A stretch of 64,000 bases of DNA from Ailanthus altissimus. Its lineage: Eukaryota > Streptophyta > Magnoliopsida > Sapindales > Simaroubaceae. Below the pieces are notes generated by a model, which did not search any database, had not been told where the DNA came from, and saw only the letters and a program-made list of their open reading frames with translations. The stretch spans positions 7,447,501 through 7,511,500 of the forward strand of contig OX327703.1 in the NCBI GenBank assembly GCA_946807835.1. The letters are read 5' to 3'. This document shows, in pieces, positions 24,677-62,598 of the stretch. Position numbers and translations under genes: made by a program. Position 1 is the first letter of the stretch. The number at the start of each line of letters is the position of its first letter.

Positions 24677-24992
24677 TTTTTCTATTAAGAGGAGATCTCT
24701 ACTCTCATCCTATATATTATGAGGTGAGCCCATTAAGTTCATAACTTTTGTTGTATAGGGTAGAGGGTATAATTTCTTCTCTCTTTTCTCTTTTATTCTC
24801 TCCTCTCTTGTATCCCTCTTAAACACAAAGAATTGGCAACATAACCAATTCTCACAGCCGCTTAAATTCACCCAAATTAAAGGGAATTCTAATGGCCTAA
24901 AGCTCAAATATGCATTTCAAACTCTTAATACTCATGTGTTGTTGATAAAAATGTTAGATTTTGGGTTTATTGATAAATACATTTTCAACCAT

Positions 24993-25005: not shown

Positions 25006-25588
25006 AAATCGACATTTTTATTCAACAACCATAAGTTAGAATGGTGCCATATTGTGTTAGGTGGCTTAAAACTCCATTTTTAACAAAATAAATTTTTGAC
25101 CGAAATTTATTTTGTGTTCTACGTTGAATATATGGCCTGATCCATTAAATATTTTCAATGATCTATTGATATATGCCATATATTTGATTTTTTTTCACAA
25201 TTTTTTAAGGCAAAAAATGAGTTTTAGATAAAATTTGGGTCAAAACCCATTTTGAAACTCGATTTACAGCCGGGGCGAGAAAGAAAGTGAAATGGATTAT
25301 GCAATCCCTATAAAATATCACAGACCCTTTAATTTATAATTAATTATGATTTGACCCTAAAATTTTAGAAAATTATAAATTGACCTTAATATTTATAATT
25401 AGTTATGATTTAACCCTATATTTTTTAAATAATTACAAATTGACCAAAATATGTTTGATTAATTACATTTTGGCCCTAAATTTTTTGATAATTACTCTAT
25501 GACCTAATATTTATTAGTATTTACAAATTAGCCTATATTGTTGTGATATTTTTTAGTTCAGTCCGCAGTTTTCTGTTTTGTTGGTATT
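25006..25588 (+). other. copia B untranslated leader, left part
   Basis: Non-coding leader of copia B up to the gypsy insertion. 25320-25560 holds a loose repeat of a GACCCTAAAATTTTAGATAATTA-like word (about 50-base period). The leader resumes at 37644. Confidence 0.55.
25584..25588. repeat. target-site duplication GTATT, left
   Basis: Identical to the five bases 37639-37643 after the 3' LTR of the gypsy element. Confidence 0.95.
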
Positions 25589-27026
25589 TGATGAACACTT
25601 GAAATTACACATTTAATAAGAGTTTTACATGATTTTTTTGTATTACTAGTGTATTTAATTTTCTTAACTTAAGTATGTTTACAATATTATACTTAATTAT
25701 CTTATAACTGTTTTGTGGCAGGTTCGGTAAAATGGGCATAACTTTCTACCTAAAGATCCAATTGAGGTGATTCTTATTCCTGTGCAGAGCTGACTCAATG
25801 GGATAACATATTTTATTTCACAAAGCATTGGAAATTCGAGTGTTTAGAGGGTGAAAATTGGCCTAGAACAGAATTGATCTGCAGTACAGGCCCAGTTTGA
25901 ACAGTTATCAGTATTTGGCCCATAACTATAGAAATACGTATCTAATACGTATGAGATAACTCAATTTGGAAATATAAGAGACTTATCTACAACTTTTATG
26001 TTTTGAGTGACAGCTAATTCGGATCACATCAATTCCAAATTGGATAATCAAGTGGGTGCCCAAGTGATAATGAATGCAAATTATTTTGCCACCATTCTTG
26101 ACTTTCATCAACCAAGTGGTTCCCTCCAAATTTGTCTCGATTTATTCATGTTTTTCTATAAATAGGTGGCTTGTTTATGCCTAAAGAATGTAATTAGAAA
26201 GTTAGAATTTAGTTCAAAATACTTTTTCTTTGTATCCATTTCCTTGTACTATTATTTCTCTTGTTTACTATTAAGTCATGTTATTTCTTCTTCCATTTCT
26301 TTTCTTTTCATTTAGTTTTATTATGTCCAAATAATTTTGTTTAAGCTAAGGTGAAAGGGTGAAGCTCTTGGCAAGGTAATAAGATATGTTTAATATTTAT
26401 TCATGAATTTAATGCTTCATTTTTAAGTTATGCAAATTTATATATGATGTATTTATTTTGTTTGTAGAATTAATACCCTTTCTTCTAAAGTGGTGATTCT
26501 TGATTTATTATTGACAAACTTAATACTTGGCACAAAAAATTCTTGAAACCATTTACAAGATTTGGTTTATATAACCTTTCTTGTAAAGTGGGAGTCTTGA
26601 TTTATTGTAGACAAATATAAAGATTGACATAATAAATACTTGAACCCATTTATAAGATTTGGTGTATAATAATTGAAAGAAATAAATACTAATCAATATA
26701 TAAATGATGATGAACCTTAATTGCTATATTTTCCGGTTGGAACCTCCTTTGTGAGAGGATTCCAATTGAGTTATAAAAAAATAAAAAGTTAAATATATTC
26801 TTATTTCTTATGCCAAGAGTGAATCTTCATAACCTTAGCTTTTTATTTGAATTGGTTAATTGAAATAATATTTACAAACATCTTATACTGCATTAATTAT
26901 CTTTAAAGTGTTTATAATTTGTAATTTTAATTCTACTTCCCTGTGGATTGACCCCGTTCTCATCGGGTTATTTATTACTTCGACAATCCTGCACTTGGGA
27001 ATAACTTCTATATTCTGGACGTGTCA
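25589..27026 (+). repeat. 5' LTR of the LOG-carrying gypsy element
   Basis: Starts TGATGAACACTTG and ends GGACGTGTCA. Same length as the 3' LTR (1438 bp) with a few scattered substitutions, mostly transitions. Confidence 0.95.
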
Positions 27027-27032
27027 AGTTTT

Positions 27033-27050
27033 TGGCGCCGTTGCCGGGGA
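27033..27050 (+). other. primer-binding site (tRNA-Asp) of the gypsy element
   Basis: TGGCGCCGTTGCCGGGGA six bases after the LTR. It is complementary to the 3' end of plant tRNA-Asp, the primer typical of the Athila lineage. Confidence 0.9.
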
Positions 27051-27100
27051 GGTAACGTTAATATTTTGTTTTGTTGTTGTTTGTTTGTTTATTTTATTTT

Positions 27101-27385
27101 CATGGAAGGCTGAGCCTCCTAGTCGTTATTTATTATTCGTTTTTTTTTTATTTATTTTTTATTTTCATGGAAGGCCGAGCCTCCTAACGTACTTTATTAT
27201 TATTCTGTTTTTATTTTCGCGGAAGGCTGAGCCTCCTACTCTTTATTTCGTTTATTTATTATTTTTACTTTTTATTTTAGTTTTTTTTAATTTTCATGGA
27301 AGGCCGAGCCTCCTAACGTACTTTACTTTATTTATTATTAGCCTTTTATTTTCGCTTTTTATTTTAATAGAAGGCTAAGCCTCCT
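27101..27385 (+). repeat. five leader repeats with a GGAAGGCYGAGCCTCC core
   Basis: Near-identical 20-base cores at 27101-27120, 27166-27185, 27218-27237, 27295-27314 and 27366-27385, spaced 52-77 bases apart by T-rich filler. The core is an interrupted palindrome (GGA-GGCT/AGCC-TCC). It lies between primer site and gag, where packaging or dimerisation signals of LTR elements are expected. Function not known. Confidence 0.8.
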
Positions 27386-27569
27386 ACTATTTATTTATTA
27401 ACTTTTTATTATATAATCTAACATCATTAATCTAACTTCTAATTATTTATCTTTATTTTGCTTTTAGTTTTACATATTTTATTTACTTGTGTGTAACATT
27501 TTATTTTATTTACCTGTGTTTAATATTTTATTTGTATTATTGTTATTGTATTTTGTTTTGTTTCTTTTT

Positions 27570-29276
27570 ATGAGCGGTTGGTTTCGAGATCCTAATTCTC
27601 ATCGTTTAGTAAAAGGTAATTTCAAAACTTCCTTTGATAATTTGTTAGATTCTCCTTCATCTTCTCATTCTTCACCAAGTAACACCATGAGCGAAAATCA
27701 AATTGAGGGACTCATAGACCTAGGGGACAATCAGTCCCAACATAATGACCATAACCGACCTAGGACACTTAGAGACTATATGAACCCTACACGAACCGGT
27801 GCACCATCTTACTTAATTTTTCCACCGGATGCAACGCATTTTAATTTTAAGCCAGGCATTATCCAACTTTTACCCACTTTTCATGGCTTAGATGCAGAGA
27901 ACCCTTATCTACATCTAAGAGAATTTGAAGAAGTGTGTAACACGTATAATGATCAAAATTGTAGCATGAACACAATTCGACTTAAGCTTTTCCCTTTTTC
28001 TTTAAAAGATAAAGCTAAAACATGGTTACAAAACCTTAGGCCAGGATCCATTTCTTTATGGGAGGAGATGCAACAACAATTCTTGAAAAAGTTTTTTTCC
28101 TCCCATAGAACAAATTCTTTCAAAAGACAAATCACCACTTTTGCTCAAAAACCAGGAGAAGCCCTTTACCAATGTTGGGAAAGGTATAAAGAATTACTTA
28201 ATACCTGTCCCCATCATGGTTTTGAAACATGGAGAGTAGTCTCAAATTTCTATGAGGGCTTAACACCCCAAGTTAGGCAAATGGTAGAAATGATGTGTAA
28301 TGGAACATTTGAGGAAAAAGACCCAGAAGAGGCAATGAACTATCTTGACTTACTAGCAGAAAATGCTCAAAATTAGGACACTGCTGGTACCTGTGAGGCA
28401 CCTAGCAAAAATCAAACCACTACATCTAGTGGGGGTATTTATCATCTTAAGGAAGACCATGACCTTCAAGCCAAATTAGCATCCCTTGCTAGAAAAGTCG
28501 AAACCTTAGAAATGAAAAAGAGTGGTCAAATAAAATCTGTTCAAGAAATTGTGTGTCATATTTGTGAAACCCATGATCACCCTACCAATGATTGCCCAAC
28601 TTTGCCTGCATTTAGGGAATGTCTCCATGAACAAGCGAATGTTTTAAACACATTCAAACGGTCAAACAATAACCCATATTCACAAAACTATAATCATAGA
28701 TGGTGAAATCACCCGAATTTTAGTTGAAGGAATGACACTCAAGCACAGGCTTCGCAACCACCTTTCCAACCACACCAAAACTTTCAAAATCATCAAGGTT
28801 ATGCACCATATGTCCCACCTCCTAGGAAAAATCTTGAAGAAACCTTGCATACATTCATTGAAAAACAAGAGTCTGTTAATTCTCAAAATGCTCAAACATT
28901 TACTGATTTGAAAGATACTCTTGCTAAATTTGCATCTGCACTGAACATTCATGAGAAAGGAAAATTTCCTTCTCAACCACAGCCAAACCCCAAAGGACAA
29001 CATAACTCAAATGCATGTAGTTCAGGAAGCCAACACATGGATCAAGTTAAAGCAGTTATCACTCTTCGGAGTGGTAAAATTGTTGAAAAAGAAATTCCTA
29101 AACCTCATGAGAGCGATGAATCAATCTCTAAGGGCAAGGAAAGTGTTGAACCTACACTTAATGAAGAAAACACCAAACCTTCACCTCCACCCCCATTTCC
29201 TCATGCATTACGTAATACTAAGAAGATGAATCATAATCCTGAAATTTTTGGAAATCTTCAAACAGGTAAAAGTTAA
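27570..29276 (+). pseudogene. gypsy gag polyprotein with CCHC knuckle, three in-frame stops
   Basis: The ATG at 27570 opens the conserved Athila-type gag. The first 295-codon frame includes the Retrotrans_gag core (IIQLLPTFHGLDAENPYLHL, RLKLFPFSLKDKAKTWLQNL, then FLKKFF). A zinc knuckle CHICETHDHPTNDC lies at 28553-28594, and a proline/glutamine-rich tail ends near 29276. Stops TAG 28374, TGA 28704 and TGA 28725 interrupt one frame; each can be explained by a single transition. pol continues in another frame from 29248, so a frameshift also separates the two. Confidence 0.88.
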
Positions 29277-29916
29277 TATTCCTTTACTGGATGCTATTAA
29301 ACAGGTTCCATCTTATGCAAAATTTTTGAAAGACTTATGCACAGTAAAAAGAAAACTGAATGTGAAAAAGAAAGCATTTTTAGCTGAACAAGTAAGTGCC
29401 ATTCTTCAGAACAATAATTCTTTGAAATATAAAGACCCTGGTTGTCCTACAATTTCATGTATTATTGGAAGTCATAAAATTGAACAAGCCTTACTTGATC
29501 TTGGTGCTAGTGTGAATTTATTACTGTATTCAGTTTATCAGCAGCTCAATCTCGGGGAGTTAAAATCAATATCTGTAACTCTTTTACTTGCTGATAGATC
29601 AATAAAAGTACCAAGAGGGACAGTGGAGGATGTCTTAGTTCAAGTTGATAAATTCATATATCCTGTGGATTTTATCGTCTTGGACACAGAACCTGTCAAA
29701 GGATGTAATCCGATACCTGTTATTTTAGGTTGTCCATTTTTAGCAACTTCTAACGCTTTGATTAATTGCAGGAATGGAGTAATGAAGCTTTCATTTGGAA
29801 ACATGACACTTAAACTCAATGTTTTTAATATGTGTAAGCAATCATATGAAGAGGAGGATGAAAGTGAAGAAGGTGATATGATTGAAACGATTGTGGAGGA
29901 TCATATTCAAAAATAG
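29248..29916 (+). pseudogene. gypsy aspartic protease region of pol
   Basis: Retropepsin that cuts the polyprotein. The segment begins with the typical VNIPLLDAIKQVPSYAKFLK linker, then LLDLGASVNLL with the D-x-G-A-S active site of Athila elements, and later VILGCPFLATSNALINC. The frame ends with TAG at 29914, inside what should be a continuous pol. Confidence 0.88.
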
Positions 29917-29937
29917 AGTTCTACCGATCCCTTAGAA

Positions 29938-31629
29938 ATGTGTTTAATAAATTCATTTGAGTCAAATATACAATTAGATCCTGAAATCTCTGACATATGT
30001 TCTTTACTTGACTGTGCACAGGTGATTGAAAATAAAATATGGAAACTAAAGTTTGAAGAATTGGGAGAAAATGAGGATAAAAAGAACGAAATTTCAAAGT
30101 TGGAGTTAAAACCTCTGCCTGAAGGACTGAAATATGCATTTCTTGGAGAGAAACAAACTTACCCGGTGGTAATCGCTTCTACACTCACAAGTGAACAAGA
30201 AGATAAGTTGATTGAATTATTGAAAATGCATAAAAATGCAATTGGGTGGACTTTAAAAGACATAAATGGTATTAATCCTTTGATTTGCACACATAGAATA
30301 CACCTAGAGGATAATGCCAAAACTTCCCAACAACCTCAAAGAAGATTAAATCCACATATGAAAGAGGTAGTGAGAGCTGAAGTTCTCAAATTACTTGAAG
30401 TAGGAATTATCTATCCGATCTCAGATAGTAAGTAGGTAAGTCCTACTCAGGTAGTACCAAAAAAATCTGGAATCACAGTCATTGAAAATGAAAAAGGTGA
30501 GTTAATACCAACTCGAGTCTCATCTAGTTGGAGGATGTGCATAGATTATAGAAAATTGAACTTGGCCACTAGAAAAGACCATTTTCCTTTACCATTCCTT
30601 GATCAGATTATAGAAAGAGTAGCGGGACATCCCTACTATTGCTTTCTAGATGGTTACTCTGGCTATTATCAAATTCCTATAGCACTAGAAGACCAAGAAA
30701 AGACTACATTCACATGTCCTTTTGGAACCTTTGCTTTTAGAAGAATGCCCTTTGGACTTTGTAATGCCCCAGCAACATTTCAGAGATGTATGTTAAGCAT
30801 TTTTAGTGACATGATTGAGCATTATTTAGAAGTTTTCATGGATGATTTAACTGTGTTTGGAAATTCTTTTGATAATTGTCTTGAAAACTTAGAAAAGGTC
30901 TTAAAAAGATGTGAAGAAAAGAGTCTTGTATTGAACTGGGAAAAATGTCATTACATGGTTACTTCTGGAATTATTTTGGGACATATAGTATCTTCTAAAA
31001 GAATTGAAGTGGATAAGGCAAAAGTCGAACTCATTACACATTTGCCTCCACCAAAAACAGTCAGAGAAGTCCGATCCTTTTTAGGACATGCTGGATTCTA
31101 TAGGAGGTTCATAAAAAACTTTAGTACTATATCTAAACCTCTTTGTAACCTCTTAGCAAAAGATGTATCATTTAAGTGGACTCAAGAGTGTCAAAATTCG
31201 TTTGAAAAATTAATTGGCCTCTTAACATCTGCTCCTATCATACAATCTCCTGACTGGTCTTTACCTTTTGAGCTCATGTGTGATGCTAGTGATTACGCTG
31301 TTGGTGCTGTATTAGGACAAAGAAAAGAAGGTAAATCCTATGTAATTTATTACGCGAGTAGAACTTTAAACAGTGCATAAATGAATTACACAACAACTGA
31401 AAAAGAACTACTTGCTGTAATATTTGTATTAGACAAATTTCGTTCTTACTTAATTGGTTCTTCAACTATTGTATTTACTGACCATGCTGCTGTAAGGTAC
31501 TTAATGTCAAAACAGGATGCAAAACCAAGGCTAATTCGATGGATTCTATTGCTTCAAGAATTTATTATCACTATCAAGGATAAGAAGGGAGCTGAAAATG
31601 TTGTTGCAGATCACTTATCAAGACTCACA
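29938..31629 (+). pseudogene. gypsy reverse transcriptase and RNase H region of pol
   Basis: Same frame as the protease. RT motifs in order: MCIDYRKLNLATRKDHFPLP, FLDGYSGYYQIPI, FGTFAFRRMPFGLCNAPATF, the catalytic FMDD at about 30838 (Athila elements often have F for Y), then the thumb and LGHAGFYRRFIKNFS. RNase H follows with FELMCDASDYAVGAVLGQ and ends VVADHLSRL. Stops TAG 30433 and TAA 31378 interrupt the frame at positions where Trp and Gln codons are usual. Confidence 0.92.
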
Positions 31630-33003
31630 CCAGATTCATCAACAGAAATAACACCTATTAATGATTCTTTTCCCGATGAATTTTTATTTTCTACTGTTAC
31701 AATGCCCTGGTATGCTAATATTGTTAATTTTCTTGTAACAGGAGAAATGCCACCTCAATGGAATGCTCAAGACAAAAGAAAATTTTTAACGGAGGTGAGA
31801 AAGTTTTATTGGGATGATCCTTATCTCTTTAAATATTGTCGTGATCAAATATTTCGAAGATGCATACCCGACAATGAGGTAAATAAAGTTATTGAATTTT
31901 GTTATTCTGAAGCATGTGGGGGACATTTCTCATCAAAGAAAACAGCTGCAAAAATCTTACAGTGTGGATTTTATTGGCCCACTTTATTTAAAGATACACA
32001 TGCATTTTGTATAACTTGTGAAAATTGTCAAAAGTTGGGATCAATTTCAAAACGAAACATGATGCCTTTGAACCCCATTCTTGTTATTGAAATCTTTGAT
32101 TGTTGGGGGATAGATTTCATGGGACCATTTCCGTTATCATTTGGATTTACGTATATCTTAGTTGCAGTAAATTATGTCTCAAAATGGATTGAGGCTATTC
32201 CATGTCGACATAATGACCATAAAACAGTCATGAAATTTTTGAAAGAAAATATCTTAAGTCGATTTGGAATCCCTCGAGCCATTATAAGTGATGGGGGTAA
32301 GCATTTTTGTAATAGACCATTTGAAACATTAGTGAAAAAATATGGTATTACTCATAAAGTTGCCACCCCTTATCATCCTCAGACAAGTGGACAAGTTGAA
32401 TTAGCAAATAGGGAGATAAAACAAATTTTAGAAAAAACTGTAAACCCAAATCGCAAAGATTGGTCTTTAAGACTAAATGATGCACTGTGGGCTTATAGAA
32501 CTGCTTTTAAAACTTCATTGGGTATGTCTCCCTATAGGATAGTTTATGGAAAACCTTGTCACTTACCTGTGGAACTTGAGCATAAAGCCTACTGGGCTAT
32601 TAAAACTTTCAATGAAAATCTTGATTCTGCTGGACACATACGTAAATTACAAATAAATGAACTTGAAGAATTGAGAAATGATGCATATGAGAATTGAAAA
32701 ATTCATAAAGCTAAAATTAAAGCCTTTCATGATAAAAAAATTCAGAGAAAAATATTTGACACTGGTCGGAAGGTTTTGCTTTATAATTCTCGACTTCACA
32801 TATTCCCTGGAAAATTAAGATCAAGATGGAGTGGCCCTTTTATTGTGAAACATGTGTACCCTTATGGAACAATTGACATTGAAAATCCTAGAAATGGGAA
32901 TGTGTTTAAGGTAAATGGGCAAAGACTCAAGCCGTTTCTAGAAAACCAAGCTTTTCATGAAGAATTTACGTTCCTGTCGGATCCTTGTTACGAGACCAAT
33001 TAA
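31630..33003 (+). pseudogene. gypsy integrase region of pol
   Basis: The zinc-binding HHCC part ([20 protein letters not shown] ... CENCQK) is followed by the D,D,E core: D in [11 protein letters not shown] in [11 protein letters not shown] in [12 protein letters not shown]. The C-terminal GPF/Y module reads [16 protein letters not shown] at 32695 separates the core from the GPF/Y module. The frame ends with TAA at 33001. Confidence 0.92.
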
Positions 33004-33221
33004 TCTTTGTTTTATATATTTACATATTTATATATATTTATTCTTCTTCTAACATTTTTTTTTTTACTTGCAGGTTAATTTAGTAGTTTTGTTAAAGTTT
33101 TGTTTTGCACCCCGGTTAAGCGGCGGATAACGGTACTCCGTGATATTTCAAATCGGTTTTGTCAGTTTCCCATAATTACTGATATCTTCTCTTCTTCCCC
33201 CTTTTCTTTAAAAAAAAAAAA
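33004..33221 (+). promoter_or_regulatory. post-pol spacer with a splice-acceptor-like site
   Basis: A long T-rich tract followed by ACTTGCAG|GTTAAT (AG at about 33073-33074) looks like a strong plant 3' splice site. In Athila elements env-type genes after pol are thought to be made from spliced RNA, so this site could serve the ORF that starts at 33222. An A-rich run stands just before that ATG. Confidence 0.45.
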
Positions 33222-33659
33222 ATGGATGACATTCTAAAAAATTTGAAAAAGCGTTTTCCCTCATTGCCTCAAAATTCCTTGAAGAAAATTTACCAAGCAA
33301 GATGTGAAAGATTAAGGTTATTAATGATTATGAATATACCTGTTGATTTACGTTGGTTAATTGAAGCCAAAGTTAGATTGACAGGTGAATTTTCAGACTC
33401 ATTAATTTCCTACATGCTTGGCTTAGGTAAAAGCTCTTTTTCAAAAAAACGAAGAGCAAAACGATTAAATGTTTGTTACAAGTGTGCATGCACAACTTGC
33501 AACACACGTTGCCGCACTTTAGGAATGGTGTCTGTAAATCGTGAAGATAAAATTAGGTTCATTAAGGATGGCCTGAGTAAGGAGTCTTTAGATAATATCT
33601 TATCGACTCTTGAGACGCATCCTAGTGGATATGTGCATATTGCAATTCATGAATTATAG
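33222..33659 (+). CDS. cysteine-rich basic protein resembling carlavirus-type nucleic-acid-binding proteins
   Basis: Intact 145-codon ORF between integrase and the LOG gene. The first 70 residues are basic and probably helical. Residues 75-81 (KKRRAKR) form a nuclear-localisation-like patch. A cysteine cluster follows at once (C85, C88, C90, C93, C97; CYKCACTTCNTRC), then a V-x-V-N...I-x-F-I-x-x-G stretch. The order basic RRAK patch, Cys cluster, S/V-N and FI-x-x-G is what I know from the small cysteine-rich proteins of carlaviruses (Carla_C4 family), which bind nucleic acid, enter the nucleus and can suppress RNA silencing. Similarity is partial and was judged by eye; it could also be an unrelated zinc-ribbon-like protein. 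That this ORF is open while gag and pol carry stops is notable but may be due to its short length. Confidence 0.5.
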   Translation: MDDILKNLKKRFPSLPQNSLKKIYQARCERLRLLMIMNIPVDLRWLIEAKVRLTGEFSDSLISYMLGLGKSSFSKKRRAKRLNVCYKCACTTCNTRCRTLGMVSVNREDKIRFIKDGLSKESLDNILSTLETHPSGYVHIAIHEL

Positions 33660-34054
33660 GACATATTCCTAAAAGAACATGAGCGGTACAGTCTCGGGAA
33701 TCTGACTTTAAAAGACCCTGTTTGCCAATTTATAAGAAAATTGGATGGGAAGCCTATCCCCGACCCATAGAGGGCGTTTAAGCCGTTACTGGACGTAAAA
33801 TCAGAGGAAGATGTGAGCCACAATCACAACTACTTGTATATATTTACTATAGCTGTTATTTTTAAATGTTTCATTTCAAACTCAAATGTCTTTTCAATAA
33901 TCAACCACCTATAATCCTTTTTGAAAATTTTACATTTTAAGCCGACAACCCATGTGACTTTTCCAGCTAACAAATTGAAAATTGGTAAAAGGTATTGAAT
34001 CTTGTATTTCAAGCCAATAGCCATGTGATTTAACTTTGCAATACCTTTTGGCTC
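33660..34054 (+). other. spacer between the cysteine-rich ORF and the LOG gene
   Basis: Non-coding. It contains a CCGACCCATAGAGGGC segment, two AAGCCRAYARCCATGTGA-like repeats (about 33940 and 34012), and the upstream region of the LOG promoter. Confidence 0.5.
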
Positions 34055-34062
34055 TATAAATA
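34055..34062 (+). promoter_or_regulatory. TATA box of the gypsy-borne LOG gene
   Basis: TATAAATA, 73 bases before the ATG. The box and the leader after it (CTATAAATACATT...TACAAACTCAAAA) are matched in front of the second LOG gene at 55914, which suggests a private promoter that travels with the gene. Confidence 0.6.
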
Positions 34063-34127
34063 CATTGCATTATTTCTGCATCTTTGTACAAACTCAAAAT
34101 CATTCAAGAGAGAGGGTGAGTGTAATC

Positions 34128-34781
34128 ATGGAAGGATCATCAACTCGTAAATTCACAAAAATTTGTGTCTTTTGTGGATCCAGTCCTGGAAAAACTAGTG
34201 AGTTTATAGAAGCAGCAGAAACCCTTGGTAAGATGTTAGCTGAGCGCAATATTCATTTAGTATATGGGGGAGGTAGTCTTGGACTAATGGGACGTGTGGC
34301 AACCGCTGCACAAAATAATGGCAGTCGAGTTTTGGGTATCATACCAAAAGCTCTAGCTGTTGGAGACATTGTAGGAAAAATAATTAGGGATGAGTTACAG
34401 GTATCATCAATGCATGAACGAATTTCTTTTATGCTTCGTAATGCTGATGCCTTCATAGCTCTACCTGGAGGTTTCGGAACATTGGAGGAAATTTTTCAAA
34501 TTGTCTCATGGGCACAATTGCAAATCCATAAAAAACCCATTGGTTTGTTAAACGTTGATGGTTTTTATAATGGGTTGTTATCTTTTCTTGACTATGCGGT
34601 GGAAAAACAATTTGTCTCATCTGCAGCACGACAGATCCTCATTTCTGCTTCAACTGTTGATTAGTTACTCGATGAACTACAAGCTTTTACACCTCTATCT
34701 GATCCAACAATGAGTCAGATAGATTGGTATACTGATAACAGTGAAAAGAAACGCAGGATAGATTTGACGCTTCGTCTGTAG
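34128..34781 (+). pseudogene. LOG-like: LOG-like cytokinin riboside 5'-monophosphate phosphoribohydrolase, intronless, late stop
   Basis: LOG enzymes cut ribose 5-phosphate from cytokinin nucleotides and so release active cytokinin in one step. The ATG at 34128 opens FTKICVFCGSSPGK, then HLVYGGGSLGLMG, GIIPKAL, SSMHERISFMLR, and the signature LPGGFGTLEE; the catalytic Arg (position 98) and Glu (121) are present. TAG at 34662-34664 (codon 179, where the intact copy at 55982 has Gln) removes the last 39 residues. Reading on in frame, the family's normal C-terminus follows up to TAG 34779, giving 217 residues, the usual LOG length. All core catalytic residues lie before the stop. Plant LOG genes normally have several introns; none is present, so the gene entered the element through RNA. 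It sits in the env position of a gypsy element with its own TATA box and AATAAA. Confidence 0.93.
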
Positions 34782-34875
34782 CCTATCTATTTCTATGTAT
34801 TTTTAAGCTTTTTTGTGTGGCTTGTTTTATTTTTTTTTGTGTGGCTTGTTTTATTTTGTTGCAGGTTTAATTTTC

Positions 34876-34881
34876 AATAAA
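34876..34881 (+). terminator. polyadenylation signal after the gypsy-borne LOG
   Basis: AATAAA in TTTTCAATAAAAG, 95 bases after the ancestral stop. The same word and the following TGTTTCA...GAT..CTTC are found after the second LOG copy at 56690. Confidence 0.6.
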
Positions 34882-36200
34882 AGATGTTTCAGATGATATC
34901 TTCTATATTTTACTCTTTCTATATTTTGACATTGAGGACAATGTCTCAATCTGGTTGGGGGGAGGATAGTTGATATATAATGTTAGTGTTAATTATTTTA
35001 TTTTGTTGTTGTTATCACTTTGTTATGTAAAAAGAAAAAAATTATCATGAATGGCGTGAGTAAAATGTTCATTTATGTATTCTTGAGACGCATTCTAGTT
35101 CTAGAATGGCAGAGTAAAGAGTACATTATAAACTTTTGAAACACATTCTAATTGGTTTATTTTTAATGCATTTTATGTATAATTGTTTGTTGCTTAAGTT
35201 TTTGGTAACTCTTGCGTAAATAAATTTGCTTTACTATCAATGTATGATTTCAAAATTGTTTAGTTTAAATCACTTTCTTTATTTAGGTTACTAAAGAATA
35301 ACTTCTGAAATTATTTCTTGAGAACAATACTAAGCCTTGTGGTAAGATGGATGATTCAATATATATAGCCAAGAGAATTTCCATGTTTAAGTATACATAT
35401 TATTTTCTAAACTCACATATCTTTTGTGAGTGAGTGGAGAGGTTTGAGATAATAGCTTACGAACTTTCATTGATCTTTTGAAATGGTTAATTTTTATTTG
35501 GAATGACATTATTTGGGATGATGAATGATTTGGTTGCTTAGCTGAAGGATAAAAAAAAAAAAAATTAGAAAAGTATTATGGTGATAAATTGCTCTTATGT
35601 TGTAATGATTCCTTATGTCTTTAAAAAAAAAAGAGTAAAAAAAAAAATTTTAAAAAAAAAAAGAAAGAAAAGAAGTCAATTCAGTTCAATAAAGTCTTCA
35701 TTCAATTTTAGAAGACTAAAGTCATTAGGAAGCAATCTTATCAGTGAATTCTATATTCGTAAGATTCGCATTAAATAATTAAAGTCTTGAAGCTGGCATT
35801 TGGCAATAATGGTTTGACTCTAAATATTTGATTTTCCTATCTTTGGATCAATGTTAGTTTGTCTGTCTGTCCTTAAATGTAACTTTTTCTTGAGCGATTA
35901 TCTGTTTTCCAACTCCATGAGTGAAATCCTAAGTCATTAAACAAGTTATTCACCTGTAAGGATATGGAGTTGAGGCTTTTACTTGGAACATTTTTAAGGC
36001 TATATATGTTGTGGTTTGTGGTAAGAAGGCTTTGGCTTAATTCACACACACACAAAAATATTTTTGGAAGTTATGATTGAAATAACCTTTATAGCGATTG
36101 TGATTTTAAAACTGACGTTTTGTTTGAAATACTTAGGTAGTGTTCAAATTTTATTTATGCTCGAATTGCTAGGGACTAGCAATAAGCCAGTTGGGGGGTG
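34882..36200 (+). other. 3' non-coding region of the gypsy element with polypurine tract
   Basis: Contains the Athila-style phrase CATTGAGGACAATGTCTC (about 34932) and ends with the polypurine tract TTGGGGGGTG (36191-36200) directly before the 3' LTR. A-rich runs lie at 35550-35660. Short ORFs here look random. Confidence 0.7.
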
Positions 36201-37638
36201 TGATGAACACTTGAAATTACACATTTAATAAGAGTTTTACATGATTGTTTTGTATTACTAGTGTATTTAATTTTCTTAACTTAAGTATGTTTACAATATT
36301 ATACTTAATTATCTTATAACTGTTTTGTGGCAGGTTCGGTAAAATGGGCATAACTTTGTACCTAAAGATCTAATTGAGGTGATTCTTAATCCTGTGCAGA
36401 GCTGACTCAATGGGCTAACATATTGTATTTCACAAAGCATTGGAAATTCGAGTGTTTAGAGGGTGAAAATTGGCCTAGAAAAGAATTGATCTGCAGTACA
36501 GGCCCAGTTTGAATAGTTATCTGTATTTGGCCCATAACTATAGAAATACGTATCTAATACGTATGAGATCACTCAATTTGGAAAGATAAGAGACTTATCT
36601 ACAACTTTTATGTTTTGAGTGACAGCTAATTCGGATCACATCAATTCCAAATTGGATAATCAAGTGGGTGCCCAAGTGATAATGAATGCAAATTATTTTG
36701 CCACCATTCTTGACTTTCATCAACCAAGTGGTTCCCTCCAAATTTGTCTCGATTTATTCATGTTTTTCTATAAATAGGTGGCTTGTTTATGCTTAAAGAA
36801 TGTAATTAGAAAGTTAGAATTTAGTTCAAAATACTTTTCCTTTGTATCCATTTCCTTGTACTATTATTTCTCTTGTTTACTATTAAGTCATGTTATTTCT
36901 TCTTCCATTTCTTTTCTTTTCATTTAGTTTTATTATGTCCAAATAATTTTGTTTAAGCTAAGGTGAAAGGGTGAAGCTCTTGGCAAGGTAATAAGATATG
37001 TTTAATATTTATTCATGAATTTAATGCTTCATTTTTAAGTTATGCAAATTTATATATGATGTATTTATTTTGTTTGTAGAATTAATACCCTTTCTTCTAA
37101 AGTGGTGATTCTTGATTTATTATTGACAAACTTAATACTTGGCACAATAAATTCTTGAAACCATTTACAAGATTTGGTTTATATAACCTTTCTTGTAAAG
37201 TGGGAGTCTTGATTTATTGTAGACAAATATAAAGATTGGCATAATAAATACTTGAACCCATTTATAAGATTTGGTGTATAATAATTGAAAGAAATAAATA
37301 CTAATCAATATATAAATGATGATGAACCTTAATTGCTATATTTTCCAGTTTGAACCTCCTTTGTGAGAGGATTCCAATTGAGTTATAAAAAAATAAAAAG
37401 TTAAATATATTTTTATTTCTTATGCCAAGAGTGAATCTCCATAACCTTAGCTTTTTATTTGAATTGGTTAATTGAAATAATATTTATAAACATCTTATAC
37501 TGCATTAATTATCTTTAAAGTGTTTATAATTTGTAATTTTAATTCTACTTCCCTGTGGATCGACCCCGTTCTCATCGGATTATTTATTACTTCGACAATC
37601 CTGCACTTGGGAATAACTTCTATATTTTGAACGTGTCA
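36201..37638 (+). repeat. 3' LTR of the LOG-carrying gypsy element
   Basis: 1438 bp, starts TGATGAACACTTG and ends GAACGTGTCA. Followed by GTATT, the right target duplication (37639-37643). Confidence 0.95.
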
Positions 37639-37643
37639 GTATT

Positions 37644-42907: not shown

Positions 42908-43470
42908 TGTTGAAATATTTTATTTAATCTTCTTATTTTTGATGGACTGGCATAATCATTCCTTTTTATTGTTAAACAAAGTTGATTATTACGTGACTGG
43001 TGTTAAATTATTTAGAGTATTTTTTAACTTATTTTGTTAGTGATCACAATATTGTTAATAAGTCATTTTAGTACACTTATATTTAGTAGTATATTATTTG
43101 GACAAGTGTGACAATTTATGGATATTATTTGTGACCCATAATAGAATGGGTATTGTGTATTTTCCTATTGTAAGGAGGTCTCTATCCTTATCCTATATAT
43201 TATGAGGCTAGCCCATTAAATTCATAATTATTACTGTATATGGTAGATGGTAGAATTTCTTCTCTTTCTCTTTTCTTCTCTCATCTCCCGTATCTTTCTC
43301 AAACATAAAGAATTGGCAACAAAACCAATTCTCATAGTCGCCTAAATTCAGCCAAATTAAAAGGAATTCTAATGGCCTCAAGCTCAAGTATGCATTCTAA
43401 ACTCTTAATACTTATGTGTTGTTGATAAAAATATTAGATTTTGGGTTTATTGAGAAATACATTTTTAACA
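42908..43470 (+). repeat. 3' LTR of copia B (563 bp)
   Basis: Starts TGTTGAAATATTTT and ends TTTTTAACA, followed by the target duplication AGTTA (43471-43475). It is the uninterrupted reference for the split 5' LTR. Confidence 0.92.
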
Positions 43471-52856: not shown

Positions 52857-53743
52857 TGTCACGCCCCAGACCCAAAAGATCTGGCACACGACATCACTTA
52901 CATTCATTTTAATTTCTTTCAGAATTATAGCAATTGAATTATGACTGGGACAATTAGTAAACCGGAGATACGCAGAGTTTTCTCAGAGATTAACACTCTA
53001 CTACGTCACCAGTAGCAACTTTGTTACCGGAAGCCCAAAATATATTTATTGCAAATTCTTACTTAAAATCAATCCATTACTACACTTGGTGAAACTTAAA
53101 CTAAATTCAACCACACACAATAAAATAATACATAAGTATTTATTCAATAGGAACAAATCAAATATCTTATCCCACGTGTCTCCAAATGAAACACTTAACA
53201 ACCTAACAACTTAGGGAACCCAAGGAATAGCAGAAGCCTTGCCAAATCCGCTAAGCACACATGTACCTTATTTACCTGAAATCACTATAAACTATAATGA
53301 GTATAAAACTCAGCAAGCATACTAGTTTTTCATATATCAAATACAAATACATATATGTACACAATGCATATGTATGATATGCTGTGATCAATTAAAATCA
53401 TAATCTTATCAAATCACATATCATGTAAGCGCTTACACATTCTTTCAAAACACATAATAGGAATACCATCACTCAACTACTACTTAGTAGGACTTACATA
53501 TCACATATCACATAATGAGCCAAATGTCACTCGTAGGTGACATACCGTATGAGAGGAATAGTACAAGTGAGGTCTTGAAATTACACACATATAATGCTTA
53601 TGCCCGAAGGTAAAAGCCAAACCCTCACCGTGATCATCGGTGAGTCCTCTCACATGCACCAATACGCCACCACACGAATGTGATGACTCACACTTCCTTT
53701 AGGTACCAATAGGATCCTCCATACATACGGAACACATAACATA
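52857..53743 (-). repeat. partial gypsy LTR copy, left (887 bp)
   Basis: From TGTCACGCCCCAGACCC onward it matches 57080-57988 almost base for base (one 22-base difference, 52902 against 57130-57151). Similarity stops at 53743 within GGAACACATAACATA. In the minus-strand element this is the R-U5 end of the 3' LTR; the U3 part is missing. Confidence 0.85.
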
Positions 53744-54230: not shown

Positions 54231-55391
54231 ATGAATCCCATTATCATAACTTCTCCTGTTCCTTTTACTCCACCACAATTTCCAGACCTAATCAGAACCA
54301 GAACACTCCATTCCCGTGCTAAAGAATTCATCAGACACTACGCCATCTTGGCAGTTCAAGAACACGGCCTCACAGTTCTTGGTGGCCCTTCGTTCAACTT
54401 GGAATACCATTTCTTTCACCTGCACTATTTTTTCCCATTTTCTCAATGGTCCAAATCTGTCCTTTACTTGTTATGGTACCTATTGGATCTGTATACAATC
54501 GCCATGGAATTCCCATTACTTAGAACCGTCCAAAAAATAGAAAAATGTGATGAAGATCATCCAGCCCTGATTTTTCTCCAATGGTTTTACCCAAAGACAT
54601 GGTGGATAACTAAATTTCAACACATGATTACAAACAACACAAATGCTGCAGTCCCTAGACAACATCTTTGGTCTGTTTTACTTCTCCAACGAAAGGGAAT
54701 GATTGTTTCAGATCATGAAATCCATTATTACCCCACTGTCAAGGATTACCTCACCTTTACCCTTTCACTAAAGGGATCAATTAAGCTCTGGCCTGAAGAA
54801 GTAATCCAGCAAAAGAGAGAACTTGAAAGAATTCTTGCTCAAGAAAACCAGATAATTCCTCCATCCGTTTGGATCTCCCCAGAAGATGCTACACCTTGGG
54901 AACAGGTTGAAGATGACTTTGTAGAAGAACTGAATTTTGCCAATATACTTAAATTCCAACAAAGACAAAAACATCATCTTTCACATCATAGAAACACAAA
55001 TTACTCTACCCACCATCACCATATCCCAAACATGACTTATTATGCCAGATACAGACAAGAAATCGATAACCTTCACCAATGGCCTCAGCCACATGTCCCG
55101 ATAGAACCTACTCAATCTCAGCCAGTTGTCCCGACAGAACCTTACCAACACCAACCCAATCTTGACTTATCCCTCTTTCAAGACTCCCAACCTTATCCAA
55201 CCGACACCCAAATCCAAGAGGAAGCCAGCACATCCCTCATCCAGACCAGCTCACCTGGAGAAGATCAAGATATGGTAGACCCACATTCCACTCAGCCAGA
55301 GCCCTCATTCAATGCATGGGAACAACAACTCCATAAGTTCCTCTCTCACGGATATGACACAGATGAAAGTGACCAAGGAGACTCATTTTGA
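54231..55391 (+). CDS. 386-aa ORF downstream of the pararetrovirus RNase H tail, unknown function
   Basis: Uninterrupted ORF in the same frame as the RNase H tail. I do not recognise a domain. Residues about 1-200 are rich in aromatic residues and look folded (HFFPFSQWSKSVLYLLWYLL; later FLQWFYPKTWW). A Glu/Arg-rich helix follows near 195-215, a His-rich stretch near 245-265, a Pro/Gln-rich low-complexity part, and an acidic end (DTDESDQGDSF). Some endogenous Caulimoviridae, such as florendoviruses, have a second ORF of unknown function after the polyprotein; this could be a diverged form. It could equally be a gene of the element that also carried the LOG copy 590 bases downstream. No stop in 386 codons in a relic suggests that it is either recent or maintained. 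Confidence 0.6.
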   Translation: MNPIIITSPVPFTPPQFPDLIRTRTLHSRAKEFIRHYAILAVQEHGLTVLGGPSFNLEYHFFHLHYFFPFSQWSKSVLYLLWYLLDLYTIAMEFPLLRTVQKIEKCDEDHPALIFLQWFYPKTWWITKFQHMITNNTNAAVPRQHLWSVLLLQRKGMIVSDHEIHYYPTVKDYLTFTLSLKGSIKLWPEEVIQQKRELERILAQENQIIPPSVWISPEDATPWEQVEDDFVEELNFANILKFQQRQKHHLSHHRNTNYSTHHHHIPNMTYYARYRQEIDNLHQWPQPHVPIEPTQSQPVVPTEPYQHQPNLDLSLFQDSQPYPTDTQIQEEASTSLIQTSSPGEDQDMVDPHSTQPEPSFNAWEQQLHKFLSHGYDTDESDQGDSF

Positions 55392-55913: not shown

Positions 55914-55921
55914 TATAAATA
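55914..55921 (+). promoter_or_regulatory. TATA box of the second LOG gene
   Basis: TATAAATA, 68 bases before the ATG, within CTCTATAAATACATTATTTTTGC. The leader is alignable to that of the gypsy-borne copy (TACAAACTCAAAA, CATTCAA, GGGTGAG), while sequence further upstream is not. Confidence 0.6.
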
Positions 55922-57059: not shown

Positions 57060-57071
57060 GCTCTGATACCA
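57060..57071 (-). other. primer-binding site of the minus-strand gypsy structure
   Basis: The reverse complement reads TGGTATCAGAGC and stands eight bases from the LTR that starts TGTCACGCCCC at 57080, so that LTR is the 5' LTR of a minus-strand element. Confidence 0.85.
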
Positions 57072-57079
57072 ATAAAAGC

Positions 57080-59798
57080 TGTCACGCCCCAGACCCAAAA
57101 GATCTGGCACACGACATCACTTACATTCATTCAATAATACTTAAACATTCATTTTAATTTCTTTCAGAATTATAGCAATTGAATTATGACTGGGACAATT
57201 AGTAAACCGGAGATACGCAGAGTTTTCTCAGAGATTAACACTCTACTACGTCACCAGTAGCAACTTTGTTACCGGAAGCCCAAAATATATTCATTGCAAA
57301 TTCTTACTTAAAATCAATCCATTACTACACTTGGTGAAACTTAAACTAAATCCAACCACACACAATAAAATAATACATAAGTATTTATTCAATAGGGATA
57401 AATCAAATATCTTATCCCACGTGTCTCCAAATGAAACACTTAACAACCTAACAACTTAGGGAACCCAAGGAATAGCAGAAGCCTTGCCAAATCCGCTAAG
57501 CACACATGTACCTTATTTACCTGAAATCACTATAAACTATAATGAGTATAAAACTCAGCAAGCATACTAGTTTTTCATATATCAAATACAAATACATATA
57601 TGTACACAATGCATATGTATGATATGCTGTGATCAATTAAAATCATAATCTTATCAAATCACATATCATGTAAGCGCTTACACATTCTTCCAAAACACAT
57701 AATAGGAATACCATCACTCAACTACTACTTAGTAGGACTTACATATCACATATCACATAATGAGCCAAATGTCACTCGTATGTGACATACCGTATGAGAG
57801 GAATAGTACAAGTGAGGTCTTGAAATTACACACATATAATGCTTATGCCCGAAGGTAAAAGCCAAACCCTCACCGTGATCATCGGTGAGTCCTCTCACAT
57901 GCACCAATACGCCACCACACGAATGTGATGACTCACACTTCCTTTAGGTACCAATAGGATCCTCCCTACATACGGAACACATAACATATACCAATCCCGA
58001 AGGAAAGGCCACACATAAAGGCTCCACAAATCACATAAAATGCCTACTATGTTAACAGTGAGTTCAAGTACCCTCAAAACACAAAATATTTCTCATGGAC
58101 ATATTACACTTCAAAAGCTTTCTTTGTTAAACATATCTTATTTTGAAAGCTCACTTTCAAAAAACACATGTATGTCCATGCTCAATGTCAATGCTCACAT
58201 TCATAAACATATATTTACATTTCATATCAAAACATACTTTGACATAACATAAACATATTCTTAACCATATTTACAAAATCATTCATAACACTTACTATGT
58301 TTATTGTGATTCCAGTAAAAAGTCTAGTATACTTACCTCTTAACACTTTCAGCTACAAGACTTAAATCTCCTTAACCTATCAATGGAGATTAATCCTTTC
58401 ATAAGCCTCACAATTCACACAAAATACTTTAAATAGCTTACAAAATTATACACAATGCATTTATCACATCAAATTGGTCTAAATACCTGGTTTCTCAAAA
58501 CCTGTCATTTTGACCACTTACACTTAACAAAATTTTCTAATACATCAAATGATGTCCAATTACTCCGAAATCAGAATATATCATTCTTGACTCATATATA
58601 CCTCTTATATATGAATATTATATGAAAATTCCTACACAATCCATTCCATACACACCATCAAATCCAAACTACAAACCTGACAGGATCAAGATACTTACTG
58701 AACAGTATTCAATCTCCAAATTTTATAAAATCATATACTAACTCAAAAATTATAAAACTACCACATAATTACTCTTAACACATATCTCAGTCCATGATAA
58801 ATATTTCTCTTCCAAATCACTGCCAAAAATATTTTAAAACTATTTTATTCCATAGCTTTAAAAATCTGTTAATCAAATACTGTAATGAGCGGATATACTT
58901 TAGAAAATCATAACATTTCAACCATATTGATCTAAATTCTCAATTCCGAGTATATCATATTAGACATATAAAATTATCATATTCCACAAATTCGTAATTT
59001 TTGAAGATCATTCAGTAGGACAAACATTGTTCGTCACTGTATCATACTGTTTACATAGGAAATTTCCAGAATTTCAGGGTCAGTTTGGTAAATTCACAAA
59101 ACATTCAATTTCTGGAATTTCGAATCGATTCAAAGTCTCAGATGATCCTAAACATGTCTAATTTCATATACTCAAAATTCAAAACCAGAATCGAATCACA
59201 ACGATTTATAAAATTCTTGGATCAAGAGACTATCAAGCAGAAATTCTACAATCCATCATAATTTATCAAACTATCTTATATCTCATCATCAATTTTCAAA
59301 ATATCATACGAAATACACATCAAATCCTCAATTATACATATTTCCAGAAATCAAAACTTAAAGAAATTAACATAATTAACATCAATAAATTGAGAAATAA
59401 TTGTGATATACCTCTTAAAATTCAAAATTCCAATTTCTTCTTCTTTTTCTTCTCCTTCTTCTCTTTCTCTCCCCTCTTTTTCTCTCTTCTCTCTCTCTAA
59501 AAGAGGTAGCTCGACCAAAATGAGAGAATTAGGGTTTTAAAAGTGTATTTTTATACTAAGTGGTTAATTTTTGGTATTTACGAATTTACCCCCAAAACTT
59601 TCAAAGTATTACAATTTGGTCCCTAAAATAAATCTAAAGTCTTGCAATTAAACCCAATGCTAATAGTATCACCTTAACCTATACAAACACTACTAATAAC
59701 AATATATAAATCAAGTATCACCAACATACAAATAAAATACGTATATTTATACATATATAAATAATTATTCTTACCAGTCGTGGATACTGGTTACTACA
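57080..59798 (-). repeat. 5' LTR of a Tekay-like gypsy element (2719 bp)
   Basis: Read on the minus strand it begins TGTAGTAACCAGTATCC and ends GGGGCGTGACA, the end style of Tekay/Del chromovirus LTRs. A minus-strand TATAAAAATA at 59546-59555 followed by a CCCTAATTCTCTC and GA-rich leader marks the probable promoter. The first 909 bases (57080-57988) are repeated at 52857-53743. The right end is followed by copia C LTR sequence, but I find no matching five-base target duplication at the two outer ends. Confidence 0.75.
59546..59555 (-). promoter_or_regulatory. TATA box of the Tekay-like LTR
   Basis: TATAAAAATA on the minus strand, about 30 bases before a TCTCTCATTTTGG/GA-rich leader. It would drive the minus-strand gypsy RNA. 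Confidence 0.5.
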
Positions 59799-60382: not shown

Positions 60383-61110
60383 ATGGCCACACCCAAGTAT
60401 AAGGTAGAGAAATTCAATGGTATGAATGACTTTAATCTGTAGAAGATGAAGGTTAAGGCGTTGTTGGTGAGCCAAAGACTTGGTTCAGCATTAGAGGAGA
60501 CTGCAGCTCCATCTAGTGATGAAGAGAAGACGCTAGAGTCATCTAGAGTAGAAGCGGAAAGGAAGGACATTCAAGAAAGAACTCATAGCATAATCGTTCT
60601 GTCATTAAGCGATGAAGTACTAAGGGAAGTAGCAGGTGAGACAACGGCAATAGATCTTTGAAAGAAGCTTGACTTTCTTTATATGAGAAAATCGTTGGCC
60701 AACAGACTACATATAAAGAAGAAACTGTATCAGCTGTCCATGTCAAAGGGGACGCCGATGAAAGATCATATAGACGCCTTCAATAAGATCATCCTTGATC
60801 TTGAGTCTATCAACATCAAGATAGAAGATGAAGATAGAGCAATTATCCTGCTGAGTTCACTCTCCAAGAGCTATGAGAGTTTTGTTGATACGCTACTCTA
60901 CGACAGAGAGAGTTTAACGATGAGTGATGTGAAATTATCATTAAACTCAAAGTTATTAGAAAAGCAGGCTGAGGGCAATGCAGAAAGTTTATCTGTAAGA
61001 GGAAGGCCCTCATATAGAGATGGGAAGAAAAAAGGTTCAAGGTCAAGTTTAGGACTCCTAGAAAGTGCTATTGCTACAAGAAAAATGGGCACTTCATAAA
61101 GGACTGTCCT
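60383..61110 (+). pseudogene. copia C gag
   Basis: The ATG at 60383 opens MATPKYKVEKFNGMNDFNL followed by TAG where Trp is usual. Gag then continues through LSDEVLREV, another in-frame stop at 60658, ANRLHIKKKLYQLSM, DHIDAFNKIILDLE and SFVDTLLYDRESL. The zinc knuckle (about 61066-61107, CYCYKKNGHFIKDC) lies in the pol frame and has lost the C-x2-C spacing. Homologous to the copia A gag. Confidence 0.85.
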
Positions 61111-61614
61111 GAGAAGAAAGCACAGGATAAGAAGAAAGCGGATGCTGCGCTTGCCTATGATGATAGCTATGACAGCGCAGAGATACTCGTCGCTACTGAT
61201 TGTATAAACTCTGAACAATGGGTTTTAGATTCTAGTTGTACTTTTCACATGTGCCCGCACAAGTCTTGGTTTATAAATTTTTAGCCTATTAGTGGTGGTA
61301 AGGTCTTAATGGGTAATGACGTTGCATGTCAGATGATGGGAATTGGTAGTGTTAAGCTTAGGCTGCATGATGGGCGAGTGAGAGAGTTGACAGATGTTAG
61401 GTATGTTTCTGATTTGAAGAGAAACTTGATCTCACTAGGGACTTTAGACTAGAATGGGTGTTCCATAAGGATTGACGGAGGGATTTTAAGAGTTTTGAGA
61501 GGTTCCATGGTGGTGATGAGAGGAGAGAAGCACAAAGGTGTTTATGTGCTTAAAGGTGAAGTCGTGAGTGGTTCTGTACTATTCTCTATAGATGATGAAA
61601 GTATGTAAACTAAG
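61111..61614 (+). pseudogene. copia C protease and pre-integrase region
   Basis: WVLDSSCTFHMCPHKSWF at about 61219: the active-site D-S-G has become D-S-S (61228-61236), so the protease would be inactive even if translated. It continues with GKVLMGNDVACQMMGIGSVKL and LTDVRYVSDLKRNLISLGTL, and three in-frame stops. Confidence 0.82.
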
Positions 61615-62598
61615 TTGTGGCATCTTAGACTGGCACACCTAGGCGAGAGAAACCTAAAGGAGTTATATAGCCAAAAGGTCTTTGGAGATGATAAGTTCCA
61701 GCCCTTCGAGTTTTGTGAGCATTGTGTGCTAGGGAAAGCATATAGAGTGAGGTTCAGTACCAGCGAGCATAAGACTAAGGGGACTCTTGACTACATACAC
61801 TCGGATCTTTGGGGACTAGCTCAGACAGCTACTTGTGGTGGTGCTAGATATTTTCTCAGCGTGATTGATGACTATTCGAGGAAGCTGTGGGTCTATATGT
61901 TGAAGAGCAAGGATCAAGTATTTGATGTGTTCAAGACTTGGAAGGCTCTTGTTGAAAATCAGACTAGCAAAAGGGTAAAGAGGCTTAGGACTGACAACGG
62001 CCTCGAGTTTTGCAACAGAGAGTTTGATGGGTTTTGTGCTAAGTATAGGATTGCAAGGCATAGAACAGTAAAATCAACACCGCAGCAGAATGGGGTAGCT
62101 GAGAGGATGAACATGACCCTATTTGAAAGGGTTAGATGCATGCTTACCAATGCGAAGATGTCCAAGACATTCTGGGGAGAAGCTGTAGTGACTGCTGCTT
62201 ATTTAATAAACAGAAGTCCCTCCTCAGCAATTGACTTCAAGACGCCAGAAGAGAAATGGTCTAGCAATCCTCCGAAGTATGACCATCTTAGAATATTTGG
62301 TTACTCTGCCTTTGTACATGTTAAGGAGGGGAAGTTGGAACCTAGAGCTATCAAAGGGGTATTCATAGGATATCTCGAAGGAGTAAAAGGATACAAGGTG
62401 TGGTGTAAAGACTTAACACCACCAAGGAGTATCATAAGCCATGATGTGACGTTCGATGAGATGACGATGCTGAAAACCTCCCAAGTAGATGAGAAAGAAG
62501 AACTTGTGACCAAGGAAAACCCAACACCCGAGTCAATAAAAGTTGAAGTAGCACCTGAAAATGGATTTGATATGCCCCCTGATCAACACTTCAACTAG
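61615..62598 (+). pseudogene. copia C integrase
   Basis: One open stretch of 327 codons. It holds the zinc-binding segment WHLRLAHLGERNLKEL ... FCEHCVLGK, then the catalytic core with D in DYIHSDLWG, D in RLRTDNGLEF and E in QQNGVAERMN, followed by FWGEAVVTAAYLINRSPS and the VFIGY segment. The core triad is intact, but the flanking domains are broken. Confidence 0.9.

Follow-up and report, generated by a model that had tools for sequence, protein, structure and literature searches.

The element examined here appears to belong to a retrotransposon lineage that has kept a hormone-activating enzyme as a gene of its own; to our knowledge, transposons rarely retain host-type enzymes for long. It lies in a 64,000-nucleotide stretch of the Ailanthus altissimus genome (the window, C21:7447501-7511500), in which a frame for the cytokinin-activating protein LOG is found inside an LTR element. 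An earlier reading made from the letters of the window alone (the sequence-only reading) had proposed that the element captured a LOG transcript and carries it in the env position. The window was searched against the genome assembly (37 contigs, 939,062,666 bases), and the element is probably a defective copy of an abundant Athila-type lineage that has long carried LOG, together with an NABP-like gene, as a genuine accessory block.

A young gypsy element with a LOG frame

The LOG-bearing element is a Ty3/gypsy element of 12.05 kb (25589-37638; Table 1). The sequence-only reading had described it as complete, with LTRs of equal length and a GTATT duplication, and this was borne out, since LTRs of 1438 bp, GTATT on both sides, a primer-binding site and domains from gag to integrase were all found. 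The domain order PR-RT-RH-INT, in which the protease match is below the curated cut-off, and the paired 1438-bp LTRs with the GTATT target-site duplication are those of Ty3/gypsy elements, and the extra ORFs (NABP and LOG) between integrase and the 3′ LTR are as in the Athila lineage. The label 'Athila-type' is based on the primer-binding site and the layout and not on a comparison with reference elements in an RT tree; the primer-binding site TGGCGCCGTTGCCGGGGA is presumably of the tRNA-Asp type. The two LTRs are 98.3% identical, with 24 differences (13 transitions and 11 transversions) and no gaps, and the K2P distance between them is 0.0169. This corresponds to an age of ~0.65 million years if a rate of 1.3e-8 per site per year is assumed, or ~1.2 million years if 7e-9 per site per year is assumed. 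As gag-pol is open in pieces only, with the coding frame interrupted at several sites, the window element is a young, structurally complete, but coding-defective copy.

The LOG frame is intronless, lies between integrase and the 3′ LTR, matches PF03641 (E=2.1e-38) and contains the PGGxGTxxE motif. An intronless LOG of 217 residues had been proposed; the intronless frame was confirmed but the full length was not, as a stop codon at 34662-34664 ends the frame after 178 of the 217 codons, and a further 38 codons of homology lie beyond it. The TATA box (TATAAATA) and the AATAAA ascribed to this LOG were both located where expected (Table 1).

A direct repeat of 205 nt (24785-24989 and 43265-43469, 89% identity) flanks the LOG-bearing element, and its copies are perhaps remnants of an older element that the LOG-bearing element entered. 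Just inside the 5′ LTR, a 67-nt repeat is present in four imperfect copies (27065-27325, spacing 52-77 nt), which fall inside an ORF at 26908-27378. Frames resembling those of a copia-type element (gag, integrase and RT pieces, judged by eye) were also seen at 60683-63723 of the window.

Table 1. Features of the two LOG-carrying elements (positions in the window)
Feature	Position	Strand	Remark
LOG-bearing gypsy element
Target-site duplication GTATT, left copy	25584..25588	none
5′ LTR, 1438 bp	25589..27026	+
Primer-binding site TGGCGCCGTTGCCGGGGA	27033..27050	+	after 5′ LTR
gag piece	27489..28376	+	Retrotrans_gag match
Aspartyl protease region	29248..29916	+	match below Pfam curated cut-off
Reverse transcriptase and RNase H start	30535..31380	+
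RNase H end and integrase	31381..32697	+	H2C2, rve
Pyrimidine-rich stretch ending CAG, splice-acceptor-like	33059..33073	+	upstream of NABP
NABP-like zinc-finger ORF, 145 aa	33222..33659	+	cut short by stop; Viral_NABP/Carla_C4
TATAAATA (TATA box) 5′ of LOG	34055..34062	+
LOG frame, 178 aa then stop	34128..34664	+	homology runs on to 34781
AATAAA 3′ of LOG	34876..34881	+
3′ LTR, 1438 bp	36201..37638	+
Target-site duplication GTATT, right copy	37639..37643	none
Second element
Truncated 3′ LTR	52857..53743	-
ORF386, orphan frame	54231..55391	+	antisense within the element
TATAAATA 5′ of LOG2	55914..55921	+
Second LOG (LOG2), intact, 217 aa	55982..56635	+	antisense to carrier element
Primer-binding site TGGTATCAGAGC	57060..57071	-
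5′ LTR, ~2.72 kb	57080..59798	-

An NABP-like gene precedes LOG

A further ORF between integrase and LOG, overlooked in the sequence-only reading, matches Viral_NABP (E=4.8e-6); the block order in the lineage would be integrase, NABP-like zinc-finger protein, LOG and 3′ LTR. A protein search with this NABP gave 564 candidates, 543 of which pass E 0.01; full-length relatives in the protein database are often 182 aa long, and the named relatives among the 120 matches listed are from Acer, Populus and Xanthoceras. When 60 relatives chosen from these 120 were scanned, Viral_NABP was matched in 58 and Carla_C4 in 54 (E up to 0.01); the first NABP member clears the curated cut-off for Viral_NABP but not that for Carla_C4. 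The homology is limited to the basic and zinc-finger part.

The AlphaFold model of NABP is weak (pLDDT 61.7), and a Foldseek search of BFVD with it returned no matches at E up to 0.001 (best E 0.28). At E up to 10 the same weak model gave 32 matches, 29 of them named. We take 22 of these 29 to be plant flexivirus proteins (best E 0.28), nearly all of which are named as nucleic-acid-binding proteins or silencing suppressors. The comparison of this predicted fold with viral proteins is suggestive at most. According to excerpts of PMC12172455, carlavirus proteins of the NABP class suppress silencing, and one of them, CVB p12, additionally acts as a transcription factor that causes hyperplasia; by analogy, we infer that the retrotransposon NABP may have a silencing-suppressor role.

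The NABP-LOG pair is shared by two diverged families

The genome search with the window LOG gave 6057 first-look candidates and that with LOG2, the second LOG of the window, gave 6204, which were unscored except for the best 150 of each LOG type. All 150 scored places were 96-100% identical to the window LOG (the window itself included) in the first search and 97-100% identical to LOG2 in the second. The search with NABP gave 4890 candidates, of which the best 150 were scored. Hundreds of near-identical LOG copies, dispersed in the genome and mostly with open frames, are still present.

Forty family-A loci were read, two of them repeats of others. The results showed that NABP lies 5′ of LOG in all 38 distinct loci (in two pieces in four of them); loci L061 and L062 likewise carry NABP upstream of LOG. 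In family B (L054-L060), which is ~25-30% apart from family A in protein (LOG ~70% and NABP 72-76% identical to family A), NABP and LOG follow in the same order in seven of seven loci; integrase was found upstream, at the expected place, in four of these and was not found within the stretch read in the other three. The sequence-only reading had asked whether other elements carry LOG at the same place, and they do, in agreement with its view of LOG as cargo in the env position. This retrotransposon context was established in the Ailanthus genome only. Arrival of LOG as a separate, later insertion into a finished element was considered and rejected on its position and the NABP neighbour common to A and B; such an event appears unlikely, because NABP and LOG follow each other in the same order in both diverged families, downstream of integrase where this was found.

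The signals around the two genes recur as well. Among the 38 family-A loci, 32 have the CTCTATAAATA (TATA) motif in front of LOG, as do the six family-B loci (of seven) in which the LOG start could be placed. An acceptor-like pattern precedes NABP in 36 of the 38 loci of family A, and an acceptor-like site ending in TTCTTCAG is readable in the five family-B loci (of seven) in which this stretch was inspected. AATAAA was absent from the 255 bases searched downstream of LOG in six family-B loci.

A comparison of dN/dS across copies had also been proposed. Between families A and B (NG86), LOG gave dN 0.22-0.23 and dS 1.69-1.82 in three pairs, an NG86-based ratio of ~0.13 that is only approximate because dS is near saturation. 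NABP gave dN 0.17-0.18 and dS 0.77-0.88 in four pairs (ratio 0.19-0.23, or 0.10-0.14 by YN00). For integrase, compared between the window and four family-B loci, dN was 0.19-0.21 and dS was too large to compute; the dN of LOG and NABP between the families resembles that of integrase. LOG2 compared with family-A LOG gave dN 0.15-0.16, dS 0.44-0.49 and a ratio of 0.30-0.34, and compared with family-B LOG a ratio of 0.22 (NG86) or 0.13 (YN00). Within families the ratio was 0.43 for LOG and 0.25 for NABP in A, 0.32 for LOG and 0.37 for NABP in B, and 0.08 for LOG2; these values were not relied on, because picking copies by protein score biases dN downwards. Among family-A copies picked in this way, a stop was lacking in 27 of the 40 distinct LOG rows and in 30 of the 33 NABP rows that are full-length and ungapped. 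On these sequence comparisons, NABP and LOG both look long maintained by the retrotransposon lineage.

A second LOG in an unrelated element

LOG2, likewise overlooked before, matches PF03641 (E=1.3e-39). A 0.9-kb block that begins immediately upstream of the TATA box is common to LOG2 and the window LOG, at 77% identity. The carrier of LOG2 is a different LTR element, the primer-binding site of which (TGGTATCAGAGC) is presumably of the tRNA-Met type. This second element looks non-autonomous, because the frames of at least 120 residues listed for its copies L009 and L012 are confined to LOG and pieces of ORF386, one of these being extended. In L013, CCGGA stands on both sides of the LOG2 element, the first LTR being short by about half a kilobase, and in L012 no substitutions separate the LTRs over 2342 aligned bases, the first LTR being incomplete because the stretch ends within it. 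In three loci (L009, L010 and L011) LOG2 elements lie in tandem arrays with common LTRs, at offsets of 6.45-6.71 kb and with repeats 99.9-100% identical.

In the LOG tree, LOG2 sits with family-A LOG in a four-row clade (support 100/98). The simplest reading is that the LOG cassette moved between unrelated elements after the split of A and B; as to direction, we infer that the unrelated non-autonomous LTR element later took up a relative of the family-A cassette, which was then amplified along with its new carrier. A LOG2 query of viral_contigs gave no relative.

In both the window and L012, ORF386 is an open frame. A protein search with it gave one homologue (P0241, 91%), and no Pfam family was matched at E up to 1. 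The stretch upstream of ORF386 resembles, by eye, the end of a pararetroviral RNase H; an origin of ORF386 as a caulimovirid remnant was considered on this ground and set aside as unproven, given the lack of a Pfam family and the single homologue.

Retro-LOGs and host LOGs

The tree was built from 119 LOG rows, namely three sequences of our own and 116 database rows of 195-245 aa (from 120 listed, three longer and one shorter being dropped), with four PDB-derived outgroups. All 119 rows group together in a single clade that excludes AtLOG3 and AtLOG8, the only plant host LOGs in the tree, with a support of 99/96 from a bootstrap that had not settled. The named database rows among those listed are from Xanthoceras, Reevesia, Diplodiscus, Populus and Paulownia, genera that we take to represent the Sapindales, Malvales, Malpighiales and Lamiales. 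The retro-LOG clade also contains three Populus models named LOGL10 (P0032, P0052 and P0105), which are annotated as host genes but may be cargo of transposons. Five pairs of equal-sized contigs in the LOG and NABP match lists were considered as proof of linkage elsewhere; two were long enough (4511 and 8723 bases) to contain the two genes in full, and the pairs were not used as such.

A putative host LOG was found on contig C24, with an N-terminal piece at 25566763-25566960 and a C-terminal piece at 25566108-25566329, 433 bases apart compared to the 126 bases (42 residues) expected. A pair on C13 is spaced in the same way and has a stop in each piece. This spacing, taken from match positions alone, fits an intron, and the statement of the sequence-only reading that chromosomal LOG genes have introns is upheld to that extent, the two host pieces being too widely spaced for one exon. 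On the same two pieces, identity to AtLOG3 is 62-76% for host places and 56-62% for retro places, a modest gap; for an old retro-LOG branch, the tree is the stronger argument of the two sequence comparisons. Of the proposed capture of a LOG transcript, the cargo status stands, while a recent capture of a local transcript is doubtful, because the retro-LOGs form a clade apart from the two host LOGs compared.

Catalytic and pocket residues of the LOG proteins

For CgLOG, Arg99 and Glu122 have been proposed as catalytic residues and Met96, His97, Lys100, Glu125 and Trp129 as the prenyl pocket, a pattern from which the pocket of bacterial MmLOG also departs (excerpts of PMC4979012). Among the 119 rows (CgLOG numbering), Arg99 is retained in 115, Glu122 in 116 and both in 112, and all three of our own sequences have both. 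Trp129 is retained in all 119 rows and the PGGxGT motif in nearly every one. Lys100 was found in ten rows and Glu125 in 11: both are kept in ten (K/E), Glu only in one (M/E), and both are lost in 108. Our own LOG sequences lack the pocket pair Lys100 and Glu125, the residues at these positions being I/Q in families A and B and M/Q in LOG2. Membership of the LOG fold family is untouched by this change, because it is a pocket feature and MmLOG departs too (excerpts of PMC4979012). The concerted loss of the pair suggests that the side-chain pocket of an otherwise catalytic enzyme has been remodelled, and it may mean another substrate.

Discussion

The long-carried accessory block that we favour has to be weighed against readings in which LOG has no role or a different one. 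LOG could be a passive hitch-hiker, transduplicated by chance and functionless, its conservation mirroring a few recently amplified masters. Gene scraps are often carried by plant elements, 13 of 40 distinct family-A LOG rows contain stops despite their choice by protein score, the window copy is also broken, and the within-family-A ratio for LOG is not a low one, even with a sampling that biases it downwards. Set against these points are the low ratio between A and B with a dN like that of integrase, the presence of both catalytic residues in nearly all rows and the TATA box retained in both families, and we regard a functionless LOG as unlikely. Repeated capture, in which elements in different plants independently took up local LOG transcripts, would agree with the occurrence of relatives in several plants, with an outgroup of two plant host LOGs and with the modest identity gap to AtLOG3; it is very unlikely, as all rows fall in one clade and 108 of 119 have lost both pocket residues in common.

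The pocket change itself bears on what the protein does. The retro-LOG may keep the fold but act on a shifted nucleotide substrate, or it may have lost hydrolysis and serve, for example, as a binding protein aiding the element. The two proposed prenyl-pocket residues have changed together in most rows, as this would predict; the catalytic residues Arg and Glu, like the PGGxGT motif, persist in nearly every row, and the MmLOG pocket differs too (excerpts of PMC4979012), so this reading is possible, though doubtful.

If the block has been kept for its products, NABP would be translated from a spliced transcript via the acceptor-like site, and LOG would be expressed from its own promoter, independently of the full-length RNA. 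The LOG protein would be an active phosphoribohydrolase on cytokinin-like nucleotides, with a changed side-chain pocket, and could raise active cytokinin in cells expressing the element; cytokinin could in turn favour dividing meristem or germ-line cells, where new insertions become heritable. NABP would bind nucleic acid and, by analogy with the carlavirus proteins, may blunt host RNA silencing. A full host-manipulation module, in which a virus-type zinc-finger protein (anti-silencing or transcription factor) and a LOG with its own promoter drive division and heritable transposition, and in which the cassette spreads between elements, is a tentative extension that we consider rather unlikely.

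An abundant retrotransposon lineage appears to have kept together an enzyme that activates a hormone and a nucleic-acid-binding protein of virus-like type. If the copies are active, plant development could be affected by mobile cytokinin genes numbering in the hundreds or perhaps thousands, and hormone-based manipulation of the host by a retrotransposon becomes a directly testable question. For annotation, this is a warning that transposon cargo may lie behind the LOG-like models in Populus (LOGL10), Reevesia, Paulownia and Xanthoceras.

Steinbauerova et al. reportedly described LOG-like ORFs in two Athila-like elements in 2011. According to excerpts of PMC9289625, which cites that work for LOG/YgdH gypsy elements, YgdH (LOG) occurs in the consensus sequences of gypsy elements from Citrus and Populus. 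The sequence-only reading knew of no described LTR element with LOG cargo, and this claim to priority fails because LOG in Citrus and Populus gypsy elements has already been published (excerpts of PMC9289625). As far as our search extends, the NABP-LOG pair, its conservation and the presence of LOG in two unrelated element types are new: no description of the pair was found in the open-access literature on extra retrotransposon genes (titles, abstract starts and counts), and excerpts of PMC7264820 mention neither LOG nor 'nucleic acid binding'.

The Citrus and Populus elements and the window element have LOG/YgdH as an extra Ty3/gypsy domain in common, whereas the excerpted account of the former (PMC9289625) makes no mention of an NABP partner, a promoter, a selection test, a pocket change or a second carrier. 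A comparable case is the AlkB RNA demethylase of gypsy elements in Phalaenopsis, likewise an enzyme of host type that a gypsy lineage has captured and retained; the enzyme is a different one, and the elements are Tat/Ogre-like and were confined to Phalaenopsis in that screen (excerpts of PMC9289625). The retrotransposon NABP resembles the NABPs of carlaviruses and betaflexiviruses in its basic stretch and cysteine cluster, but differs in its length of 182 aa, its own N- and C-terminal parts and its location in a retrotransposon. The retro-LOG and the plant LOG AtLOG3 (PDB 2a33) both belong to PF03641 and have the catalytic Arg and Glu; compared to AtLOG3, the retro-LOG is intronless, is 51-54% identical over the stretch aligned in full-length matches, and has the pocket Lys and Glu replaced in our own families.
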